Assembly: GCA_022792295.1 (NCBI GenBank)
Contig: JAAWAR010000028.1
Location: 25,842 to 89,841, forward strand
Length of the DNA stretch: 64,000 bases
Origin: Lachnospiraceae bacterium
GTDB lineage: Bacteria > Bacillota > Clostridia > Lachnospirales > Lachnospiraceae
Reading direction: 5' to 3'
Below the pieces are notes generated by a model that saw only the letters and a program-made list of their open reading frames with translations, was not told where the DNA came from and did no database searches. This document shows positions 57,688 to 62,225 of this stretch, in pieces. Every line of letters starts with the position of its first letter. Within the stretch, counting starts at the first letter, position 1. The translations under genes were made by a program, and so were the position numbers.

Positions 57688-57733
57688 AGGGGATTCGTGC
57701 AAAAACAGGAAAAAAGGCCAGGAGAGCCGTAAA

Positions 57734-58483
57734 TCAGCGAACTTCCCACTTGAAAAACCGGACAGAAATTCCCGCACAGATGCCGGTGACGACAGCCATA
57801 GTACAAACCAGAATCCAGCCCTTATCCACAGGAATTCCAAGAAACACCTTCTTCATCAACTGAATTCCCTGAACCATTGGAAACATAGATACAATTCTTT
57901 GTATACCCTCTGGCATAATTTCAAAGGGAATCGTGGTTCCCGAAAAAATCAACATTGGAAAATACAAAAAGCAGGCAATCAAACCCGCACTTTTCGTATT
58001 GTTTGCAACACCGCCTGCCATCATTCCAATACTCAGAGTTGATACCATTGTGAACAGCCAGCTTCCCATGAAAGCAGGCAAAGAGCCGCGCACTCGTATC
58101 TTGCAAAATACGGAAGCTGCAGCAGCCAGGGTAAGCAGAAAGGCAAGACAATAGAGCATATAAACGGTAAATTCCACCGCCAGAAGCTTAACAGGGCTGA
58201 CAGGTGTGACCCAAAACCGTTTCAGAACTCCCCTCTCCCGGTATTCCGATACTGCCAGAGGGAGGCCCATTAATCCCCCGGCACAGATTGAAATGGCACA
58301 TAGCGCACCAAAAGATTGTTCTATAAAGGTATACTCCAATCCTTTGCCTGCAGGCTTTGTCCCATAGATTAAACCCAGAAAAAGCATGACGACTAACGGC
58401 ATCAAAACAGCAGAAATTATCATGTTCATATTTCTGAAAGTAAGCTTCAGTTCATATTTTAAAAGAATACCAAAGGATCTCAT
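57734..58483 (-). CDS. ABC-2 type transporter permease
   Basis: 249 aa membrane protein of the ABC-2 export family, with about six hydrophobic segments and the cytoplasmic block LPLAVSEYRERGVLKRFWVTP typical of these permeases. It overlaps the end of the ATPase gene by an ATGA. The frame is intact although its ATPase partner is not. The family exports drugs, antibiotics or lipids. The gene is AT-richer than the neighbours left of 57.6 kb. It may be non-functional if the ATPase cannot be made. Confidence 0.85.
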   Translation of the reverse strand: MRSFGILLKYELKLTFRNMNMIISAVLMPLVVMLFLGLIYGTKPAGKGLEYTFIEQSFGALCAISICAGGLMGLPLAVSEYRERGVLKRFWVTPVSPVKLLAVEFTVYMLYCLAFLLTLAAAASVFCKIRVRGSLPAFMGSWLFTMVSTLSIGMMAGGVANNTKSAGLIACFLYFPMLIFSGTTIPFEIMPEGIQRIVSMFPMVQGIQLMKKVFLGIPVDKGWILVCTMAVVTGICAGISVRFFKWEVR

Positions 58484-59200
58484 TCTGCAAAAACCTCCTC
58501 TCCGGAAAGCATAAGATACGCGTCTTCAAATTTTTTGCACTCACTTTTCTCCTTTGCCTGTTCGATGGTTCCTTGAAAAACTGCGGTTCCCCTTTTCAGG
58601 ATACAAATCTCATCGCAAAGTTCCTGTACCTCATCCATAAAATGAGAAGTCAAAAAAATTGTTATTTTCCTTGAGTTCCGAAAGAATTTTCCAAACGTCA
58701 CGGCGTGCCTTTACATCAAGGCCGGTAGTCAGCTCGTCCAAAAATACAACCTGCGGATTGGAAATCAGTGCAAGTACAATAAAAAGCCTCTGCCTCTCAC
58801 CTACAGACAGGCTTTTTACCGCATGTTTTATTTTTTTGTCAAGCTTAAACCGGCTGCACAAGTTTTGCCAGTCATCCGGAGCCTTGTAAAGGCTGGCGGT
58901 CTCCTCGCACAACTCAAAAACCCGAATTTCCGGCTGGTAAGCACATTCCTGAAGCTGGACACCGATCTTCTCAAAAAGTCGGTGTCTGTCCTTTCGCGGA
59001 TTGCAGCCTAATATAGAAACTGTACCTCCATCCGCCTGGCGCGTTCCCAGCATGCATTCGATCGCTGTGGTCTTCCCTGCACCGTTTGAACCAAGCAGTC
59101 CAAAAATTCTCCCCCGCTTCACTGACAAACTCAGCTCATTCAATGCAATCAATTTGCCGTACTTTTTTGTAAGACGTTCAACCTTTATGGTTTCTTCCAC
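58480..59200 (-). pseudogene. ABC transporter ATP-binding protein, frame broken at T7
   Basis: The upstream frame (58631-59200, GTG start with GAGGAGG) carries Walker A GSNGAGKTT, a SVGERQR signature and Walker B VVFLDE. The downstream frame (58480-58701) continues with the His-loop TSHFMDEVQ and the C-terminal end. The break lies at a run of seven T (minus strand) within about 20 bp; dropping one base restores a normal-looking ABC domain of about 240 residues. Whether this is a true mutation, a sequencing homopolymer error or slippage cannot be told here. Next to a broken MerR gene. Confidence 0.8.
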
Positions 59201-59236
59201 TGCTTTTACCTCCTCGTTATTGATAAGATAAAAATA

Positions 59237-59258
59237 CCACCAATGAAAACATTGGTGG
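59237..59258 (-). terminator. hairpin after the MerR gene, before the ABC ATPase gene
   Basis: Perfect 9-bp stem CCACCAATG/CATTGGTGG with a 4-nt loop, followed on minus by TATTTTTA. Only 36 bp separate it from the ABC start, so it may act as an attenuator. Confidence 0.75.
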
Positions 59259-59271
59259 CAAAGTGGAGTGT

Positions 59272-60014
59272 TTAAGAAAATTTGTCTCTCATGCCCTGCA
59301 GCATGAGGATCATTTTGTGAGCGTTATTCTCGGCATCTGATAAGGAAAAAAGCAGTTTATCGCATACAGAAATAATCTCCGCATCGGCAGTCGGCGTATT
59401 CAGAATGTACTGTATGTCCGACTGTGGATTCTCGGACAGCTTGGAGAGCATGCGCAGAATCGCTTCCAAAGAATAATTGGCACATCGCAGAGCACGAATG
59501 ATTTTAAGGCGCTGTATATCCTCATCTGTATATACCCGATACCCGTTTTGTCTTCGTTTAACCGTCAGAAGGCCGTTCATTTCCCAATTTCGCAGGGTAT
59601 CCATTGAGATGTGAAGGTAGCAGGCTGCCTCTTTTCTTTTTAAAAAATGCGTTTGGTTCGTTTCTTCTCCCGACAGCATTTTTTTCACAATTTCTATGGA
59701 CTCCCTTGCATTCTTTTGCTCTTTTTTAAGTTGTTCCAAATATTCTCTTGCAAGCGCAAGCGCCGCATCAAATTCACCGGATGCGGACTGCTTTACCATC
59801 TGAACCATTTTTTTCGCAGGCCATTTTGTATCAGTTCGACTTTAAAGGCAAGACGGGCCAGCTTCATCTGTTCAACATGCTTTTCAGTAAATATGCGGTA
59901 GCCATTTTCCTGGCGCTTTACCCTGGGGATCAATCCCAGTTTTTCATATAAGCGGACGGTATTCGGATGAATCCCAATTATAGACGCAACTTCGGCAGTT
60001 TTGTAAGTCTTCAT
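59272..60014 (-). pseudogene. double-HTH MerR family regulator, frame broken at A7
   Basis: First frame (59793-60014): MerR helix-turn-helix IIGIHPNTVRLYEKLGLIP. It ends at a stop soon after a run of seven A. Second frame (59272-59808): a long helix, then another MerR-like HTH (LHISMDTLRNWEMNGLL) and a ligand-domain-like C-terminus. One extra base at the A7 run joins them into one protein of about 246 residues with two HTH domains. The run reads cgA AAA AAA in the zero frame, a possible -1 slippery site. It is expected to regulate the ABC genes that follow. Confidence 0.75.
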
Positions 60015-60141
60015 ATTATTTCCTCCCTATTGCAAGGAATATCTTATCATCCTGCAAAAGTCTGGTGTCTAAATGGAAGGTTTTTTCAGAAATATACGGG
60101 ACAGTACCAAGGGAATAAAAAAATTTGTAGCCTCTTAATTA

Positions 60142-60555
60142 TTAGTCAATCGCTTTTATCCCCATTTCAGACAGCTTCGTAAGGTTTTCAATCATACGAT
60201 TTAACATTTCAGGGGAATGTCCCTCCCATTTGGTTACTTCTGCCAAAATTCTTAGCGGGTGCTTTGATCTATACGATTTTGTTGGATTTCCGGGAAATTT
60301 CTTATCTGTCAGATTTGGATCGTCTTCGAAATCACCTGTTGGCTCGACAACATATATTCTTTCCGTATCATCTCCCTCTGCCAATTCTGCTCCCCAAATT
60401 GCTGCATCCAAGGTTCCTGCAAAATAAACATATTCGGATTTTCTATTGTCACTATAATTCTTTTTCTTTCCTGTGATTATTAAATCTCCTACTTTCAAAT
60501 TTGCTTTTGTTCCATGAAAAAAAGAACCTCGGCTAAATACTATTTTCTCACTCAT
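60142..60555 (-). CDS. arr: NAD+-rifampin ADP-ribosyltransferase
   Basis: 137 aa enzyme that inactivates rifamycins by ADP-ribosylation of a hydroxyl on the ansa bridge. Strong family features are FFHGTKANLKVGD, YFAGTLDAAIWGAELA, the VVEPTGDFEDDPNLTDKKFPGNPT block and WEGH near the end; length matches known Arr proteins. Start ATG 60555 with AAAGGAGAAAA; the track's 171-residue version includes leader codons. Chromosomal arr genes are common in environmental bacteria and do not by themselves prove acquired resistance. Confidence 0.93.
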   Translation of the reverse strand: MSEKIVFSRGSFFHGTKANLKVGDLIITGKKKNYSDNRKSEYVYFAGTLDAAIWGAELAEGDDTERIYVVEPTGDFEDDPNLTDKKFPGNPTKSYRSKHPLRILAEVTKWEGHSPEMLNRMIENLTKLSEMGIKAID

Positions 60556-60680
60556 ATGATTTTCTCCTTTACAACTTCTGAATCTATATACTGGATTATA
60601 AAATATCTGCCTGCTGCCCGCAATGCCTGTTTGCAAGCAAATTTTTAATGGGTACACAATTCCGAAAAAGAAGAAAAAAT

Positions 60681-61109
60681 TTAACTTACTGTGCGTTTTC
60701 GCAAAGAGATTAAATAAAATACATCCGATAGGATCTGCTTATCCCGTACCTCCAGCATCAGCCATTTCTGCCCGTTACCAGTTTTTGTATTCCTGAATAC
60801 TTCCTGCACATAGGCAGAGCACTGCGGCATTGACGATTCTGCTTCTGCAAATTCCTGATTCCCTATGACTACAAGCGCAATAAAATATCCCTGCGCAGGG
60901 TACAGAGTACAAAGAGATTTCCCACCTTTTCTGTATTTTATATTCCAGCCTGCCTGCATCAGACAGCGGCTGTATTCCATATGTGGTTTGACCTGGTATG
61001 CGGACTGAATACGGGCATTAAACTCTATCCATAATGGATTGTCAATGTATTTTGCAACTTGCTTCAGCGATGGGGGCGTTTCGTTTGTAAAAAGCACACT
61101 CCATTTCAT
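60681..61109 (-). CDS. DUF3788 family protein
   Basis: 142 aa soluble protein matching the DUF3788 pattern: an N-terminal PPSLKQVAKYI region, KYRKGGKSLCTLYP and a C-terminal DVFYLISLRKR. Family function unknown. It overlaps the preceding AraC-type gene by an ATGA, so the two are probably co-translated, a pairing that suggests joint small-molecule sensing or modification. No motif points to a catalytic residue. Confidence 0.75.
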   Translation of the reverse strand: MKWSVLFTNETPPSLKQVAKYIDNPLWIEFNARIQSAYQVKPHMEYSRCLMQAGWNIKYRKGGKSLCTLYPAQGYFIALVVIGNQEFAEAESSMPQCSAYVQEVFRNTKTGNGQKWLMLEVRDKQILSDVFYLISLRKRTVS

Positions 61110-62053
61110 CTCTGGTTTTCTCCTGTTCCTTCATTTTTTAACGGCAGAGGTTTGATCCAAATCTCCATGCAGGCCATCCCTTCTGCATCCCGGTAATACT
61201 TTTCTGCCGAAAATGCCTCCGTTGTCAGCCTATGATGCAAAAGCCAAGTATTAAAAAAATATTGGTTGGCCTGATCCAAAGCATGCGTTACCAATTTTTC
61301 AAAGCTTTCCGCTTCAACTTTACAGATAATGTATTCTCCCTCTGGAAGTTCCTTTTTTATAAAGCCAGGCTCCATCTTCTCCGGAATCGTTTCAGCACGT
61401 CCTCCTGCAAAATAAGCAAATGTTCCCCGTAGCGGATCTGCCGAATGTGACATTCCCATTTCCACACCGGTATTGAGATGGGATGCAATGGAACCTTTCT
61501 CCAGGTGGTATCGGCGCCAAAGTTGGCCGGGAACATCTACACCCATACTTTCGCCAACTGGAGCTTGTCCGGAAATTTTAACTTTTGTTTCAAACCCCAA
61601 ATAAATTTCTGCTTGTTTCAACGTCTTTTTATAGATTTCTAAAACCATATCTTTTGTTACCAACGGGACTCCCTCATCTATCTGTACATACTGCATAGAA
61701 ATCTCCGGTTTTTCAAATGTGTTGAGCATTTGCAGATCTTTCCTGTATTCTTCAGGGGTAATCCCATATGTTTCTTTGAAAGCTCTTGTAAAATTTGCAT
61801 GGCCTGAAAACCCGTATTCTAAAGCGACATCGAGAATTCGCTGTTCTGGATCTTTCAGAGCCTCGATTACTCTTGTCAGGCGACGAAGCTTTACATACTC
61901 TTGTACCGGTTTCTTTACCAGCCGCTTAAATAATCGTTGAAAGTAAAATGGGGATAATCCAACAAAATTTGCCAGAGATTCTGTTGGAATTTCCTCTGTC
62001 AAATGCCCCTCAATATAGTCCAATGCCTGTTCTATTGTTTCCCATGCCTGCAT
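61106..62053 (-). CDS. AraC family regulator with GyrI-like effector domain
   Basis: 315 aa. The N-terminal AraC DNA-binding domain (about 1-105) has two HTH motifs (ESLANFVGLSPFYFQRLFKRL and VALEYGFSGHANFTRAFKETYG). A GyrI-like/SOUL-type effector-binding domain (about 130-310) follows, in which aromatic residues and an acidic residue typically bind cationic drugs. This layout matches multidrug regulators such as Rob-type and SbmC-linked proteins. Start ATG with AAGGAGGTG. It may control the adjoining DUF3788 and arr genes, an inference from order. Confidence 0.88.
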   Translation of the reverse strand: MQAWETIEQALDYIEGHLTEEIPTESLANFVGLSPFYFQRLFKRLVKKPVQEYVKLRRLTRVIEALKDPEQRILDVALEYGFSGHANFTRAFKETYGITPEEYRKDLQMLNTFEKPEISMQYVQIDEGVPLVTKDMVLEIYKKTLKQAEIYLGFETKVKISGQAPVGESMGVDVPGQLWRRYHLEKGSIASHLNTGVEMGMSHSADPLRGTFAYFAGGRAETIPEKMEPGFIKKELPEGEYIICKVEAESFEKLVTHALDQANQYFFNTWLLHHRLTTEAFSAEKYYRDAEGMACMEIWIKPLPLKNEGTGENQR

Positions 62054-62225
62054 TGTTGCACCTCCTTGCTTGGATATTCCTATTCTATCATTTTATTTTT
62101 TCACAGACTTTTCACTCTATGCCCTTTTTTGATTTTATACGTATGTCATTCGCATGTTCAAAATGAGAGAAAAAGCCTTTTAACTTGAAAAAAGAATCAA
62201 AATCTTTTGAAATAGAAATCGTATA

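Follow-up and report, generated by a model that had tools for sequence, protein, structure and literature searches.

A MerR-type regulator gene and the adjacent ABC ATPase gene of an accessory DrrAB-like operon, probably a recently decayed pseudogene pair in a Lachnospiraceae genome

The window, by which we mean the whole stretch of 64,000 nucleotides that was analysed, comprises positions 25842-89841 of contig C81 in a draft Lachnospiraceae genome (2.81 Mb in 145 contigs, 81% complete). Open reading frames and Pfam matches place a regulator, an ABC ATPase and an ABC-2 permease, in that order, on the minus strand at 57734-60014. The features of the locus are as follows.

59272..60014, minus strand: two-domain MerR-type regulator gene, split (open reading frames; Pfam MerR/MerR_1 in both halves; relatives)
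59793-60014, minus strand: first half of the MerR gene, with the first MerR HTH, 73 aa (open reading frame and Pfam)
59272-59808, minus strand: second half of the MerR gene, with the second MerR HTH and the C-terminal region, 178 aa (open reading frame and Pfam)
59808..59814, minus strand: A7 run at the MerR break, T7 on the plus strand (window sequence against relatives)
59235..59260, minus strand: terminator-like stem-loop between the MerR and ATPase genes (pattern match only)
58480..59200, minus strand: DrrA-like ABC ATPase gene, split (open reading frames, Pfam, NCBIfam, relatives)
58631-59200, minus strand: first ATPase frame, 189 aa (open reading frame)
58480-58701, minus strand: second ATPase frame, 73 aa (open reading frame)
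58802..58804, minus strand: ATPase codon 133, GTA, Gly to Val in the ABC signature (Gly in 76/77 relatives)
58659..58668, minus strand: site of the ATPase lesion, a net 5-nt deletion upstream of T7 that removes conserved Gly-Leu codons (relatives' spacing)
58652..58658, minus strand: T7 run near the ATPase break, A7 on the plus strand, already in the correct downstream frame and not the lesion (window sequence)
57734..58483, minus strand: ABC-2 (DrrB-like) permease, 249 aa, full-length open reading frame (Pfam, NCBIfam; full-length match in 76 relatives)
57705..62225, no strand assigned: accessory block that holds the operon (missing at the syntenic site of the congener G002)

The stem-loop between the two broken genes has 11 pairs and a T tail; with such an element in between, the ATPase could be transcribed from a promoter of its own, or the hairpin could serve in regulation. 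Searches of the genome found no second intact copy of the ATPase, the next-best ATPase being just 35% identical, and no other locus with two MerR matches.

For comparison, a scan of GTDB genomes yielded 80 loci, mainly from Lachnospiraceae and other Bacillota, to which loci from the same family were added; the genus of the source organism comprises three genomes. The regulator is a single polypeptide in 84 distinct loci, its N-terminal part corresponding to the first window frame and its C-terminal part to the second, and in 77 loci the ATPase is likewise read in a single open frame, 229-248 codons long when counted from where the match starts. A split MerR gene was seen in 0/84 and a split ATPase gene in 0/77. 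Thus the frame of both genes is disrupted relative to intact homologues, as originally predicted, since in every relative each of the two proteins occupies a single frame. Most of the Bacillota relatives retrieved have the order regulator, ATPase, permease as well. A conserved unit of many Bacillota (L024-L103, for example L031:3794-5323) consists of a regulator that combines two MerR HTH domains in one polypeptide and, downstream of it, a DrrA-like ATPase with an ABC-2 permease; NCBIfam holds no specific model naming such a unit, and nothing useful was found in the literature on two-MerR-domain regulators beside ABC operons.

The MerR gene changes frame where the original prediction had placed the switch, the frames 60014..59793 and 59808..59272 overlapping at the A7 run. 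The zero frame here reads CGA AAA AAA TGG, and relatives at this site read G-L-R-K-K-[IMVA], with the R-K-K codons written, for example, as CGA AAA AAG or CGG AAA AAA and followed by A or G. Because K-K is legible in both window frames, the lesion is that, on balance, one base has gone from CGA-A(7). A change of homopolymer length, from A8 to A7, is compatible with this lesion, and loss of the G from AAAAAAGA would fit equally well.

The ATPase gene proved to be different. The expected overlap of its two frames (59200..58631 and 58701..58480) near T7 is real, but the idea that this gene, like its neighbour, breaks at a seven-base homopolymer holds for the MerR gene only. All 77 intact relatives (77/77) carry L-K-x-x-G-[L/I/M/V]-[T/S/I]-[I/V]-[F/L]-L-[T/A]-S-H across the junction, with a length that never varies, whilst the window reads CTC AAG GAA AAT A followed by ACA ATT TTT TTG ACT TCT CAT. 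The motif T-I-F-L-T-S-H is whole in the downstream frame and begins ahead of the T run, and the interval from AAG to ACA is 7 bases in the window against 12 in the relatives. As the downstream frame already holds before the T run, the net loss of 5 nt lies upstream of that run, and the invariant, single-frame spacing of the relatives makes it a deletion of that size and not a homopolymer change. Missing at about 58663/58664 are five bases, equivalent to the Gly-Leu codons less one base. The T7 run was considered as the lesion itself and rejected: the downstream frame already covers the T-I codons ahead of the run, and the relatives (77/77) have two further residues. A one-base change, which had been expected to restore the gene, would rejoin the frames, but the resulting protein would be two residues short and would lack the conserved G-L and T-I. 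In the comparison of run lengths, proposed as a check, T7 is also present in this region in five intact ATPase genes, among them that of relative L025, which in the junction region reads ATTTTTTTG. The truncated ATPase product keeps Walker A, Walker B and the D-loop and lacks the H-loop histidine (TSHFMDE); Walker A, signature, Walker B and H-loop do not stand intact in a single frame, the signature reading LSVG and the H-loop lying in the other frame.

Signs of relaxed constraint beyond the frameshift were found in the ATPase, namely the signature change from LSGGERQR to LSVGERQR (G133V), at a glycine kept in 76/77 relatives, and departures at near-invariant columns. In a leave-one-out comparison over columns at least 95% conserved, the N-terminal part of the ATPase deviates at 4/71 columns, a fraction matched by only 4/77 relatives; the Walker A change S44T and the change V79I are mild. 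The G133V substitution in the LSGGQ signature points to relaxed selection on the ATPase. By the same threshold the MerR gene is altered at 0/29 columns in its first half and 3/57 in its second, and the changes in both halves lie inside the range of the relatives. Any decay must therefore be recent, because the permease is still open and the conserved residues of MerR are mostly intact.

The operon lies in a block of 4.5 kb (57705-62225) that is missing from G002, where 204 bp separate the same neighbours. Synteny with G002, at a DNA identity of about 82-92%, extends over nearly the whole contig; the exceptions are the segment 57705-62225 and a part of the contig's right end, which is 79% identical. 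With a GC content of about 0.37-0.45 (about 0.43-0.45 in the operon itself), the block lies below the contig, which has 0.51. The DNA of the ATPase and MerR genes found no match in G001, and G002 carries other ATPase-permease pairs elsewhere, at 67-68% DNA identity. Besides the operon, the block holds an intact-looking Arr and an AraC-type regulator. The rifampin ADP-ribosyltransferase (Arr), at 60142-60561 on the minus strand, scores 205 bits with NF033144 against a cut-off of 130. At the block edges no transposase or target-site repeats were found, just chance repeats of 7-10 bp. The 204-bp spacer of G002 (C4 267937-268141, L128) contains an inverted-repeat-like pair, TGTTACTGTTCAC ... GTGAACAGTAACA, possibly a repeat element. 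Also syntenic in G002 is the window segment 23752-34872 (minus strand), where one open reading frame extends over about 3,700 codons and includes eight A/T runs of at least seven, all in frame. We infer that the source genome gained the block, rather than G002 losing it; an accessory, dispensable origin of the operon fits with its easy loss.

The original prediction had set three readings side by side: homopolymer errors in the assembly, paired decay of a transporter unit and programmed slippage. Paired decay is the best supported of these, homopolymer error fails for the ATPase and is possible only for the MerR base, and slippage is contradicted. If the assembly or consensus were at fault, a base would have been dropped from the MerR poly-A stretch, the ATPase would have been misassembled and the genes of the organism itself would be intact. 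The genome is indeed a fragmented draft, loss of one base from a homopolymer, as in the MerR gene, is a typical long-read error (PMC12007338), and unclustered, BLAST-validated frameshifts are often sequencing errors (PMC3711429). However, the ATPase has lost 5 nt outside a homopolymer, and the G-to-V substitution in its signature is no indel artefact. General homopolymer errors were rejected on the basis of a survey against the congener G002, in which proteins from 734 kb of that genome were compared with 715 kb of the source genome to give 133 orthologues. Of these, 120/133 could be read without a change of frame for more than 90% of their length; the remaining 13 comprised 7 that end at contig edges and 6 that do not, and of these 6, inspected by eye, three have query frames that look spurious and the others look like start-site differences or partial matches, with no runs of at least seven at their junctions. 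Within the intact orthologues, which supply 140 kb of coding DNA from the source genome, breaks were found at 0/88 runs of at least seven; this gives a per-run error rate below about 3.4% (95% upper bound, rule of three), for core genes that selection holds intact, so that the control tests assembly error better than decay of accessory genes. With so low a rate, and just four such runs within the operon, one would not expect a chance error to strike there. Runs of A or T of at least seven are common here, and a run near a frame break is by itself weak evidence. Assembly error is thus an unlikely account of the two lesions, and one that we would equally not favour for the MerR base alone, where it could still apply.

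Slippage, whether programmed or adventitious and whether by ribosomes or RNA polymerase, would rejoin the MerR halves at A_AAA_AAA and yield some joined regulator. CGA AAA AAA TGG does have the -1 slippery frame that was originally described, and 'pseudo pseudogenes', broken-looking genes rescued through slippage at nine-A runs, are known (PMC1088944). Nevertheless, the frame is unbroken in every relative, none of which is split or has retained the site for a change of frame, and the slippery site is an ordinary one, because the intact genes examined in the same genome (49,082 codons) contain A_AAA_AAA in frame 33 times. No downstream stimulator structure was seen, the 86 nt after the MerR run folding no better than shuffles (z -0.44), and A7 falls short of the 8-9 As at which productive transcriptional slippage has been reported, at sites kept among homologues where it is used (PMC1088944). 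The ATPase would be beyond such rescue: RNA slippage dropping one U, suggested earlier, is wrong for a 5-nt lesion with a T-run frame that is already correct. In the GeneTack survey, an unclustered frame transition with intact homologues denotes an indel mutation or sequencing error and not recoding (PMC3711429). We therefore regard rejoining by slippage as very improbable. A variant in which MerR is expressed conditionally by slippage at A7, with separately made MerR-domain polypeptides of 73 and 178 aa or a low level of joined product still acting and the ATPase abandoned, would seem far-fetched; the 178-aa polypeptide would have as its start an ATG inside the A7 run.

In gene order the operon resembles DrrAB-type ABC-2 efflux operons with an upstream MerR-family regulator (TIGR01188 drrA, PF12698/PF01061), and the top NCBIfam matches are drrA for the ATPase and the DrrB family for the permease. 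It differs in scoring below the curated drrA and drrB cut-offs (128 bits against 312 for drrA with the N-terminal part of the broken ATPase, a resemblance in manner of working only), in having a regulator with two MerR domains and in having two of its three genes broken. Frameshifted bacterial pseudogenes of the GeneTack pseudogene/singleton class likewise show one broken genome, intact homologues and no recoding signal (PMC3711429), although here two unlike lesions lie in adjacent genes of one operon. Genes rescued by poly-A slippage, such as Thermus dnaX and IS elements (PMC1088944), share the frame break at an A run, but the present run is only seven long and unconserved in relatives, and there are no split homologues.

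In conclusion, real and recent decay of an accessory DrrAB-like efflux operon, leaving an ordinary pseudogene pair, is the likely explanation of the two broken genes. The ATPase would have been inactivated when 5 nt were deleted from the stretch that links D-loop and H-loop, with its LSGGQ signature also substituted. A poly-A stretch is a usual hotspot of replication slippage; the MerR gene would have lost one base in such a stretch, and its two HTH domains would no longer form one protein. After the failure of one gene, selection on the remainder would have relaxed and the second lesion followed. The two lesions and their exact type, the intact genes of all relatives and the lack of homopolymer errors in the sample were observed directly; that function was lost, in which order this happened and that relaxed selection was responsible is what we infer from the sequence. 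A seven-T run beside a frame break need not be its cause, and here comparison with relatives led to a 5-nt deletion and allowed probable gene decay to be told from assembly error without reads. For annotation, the MerR and ATPase genes of this organism should be called pseudogenes, without appeal to a slippage mechanism.
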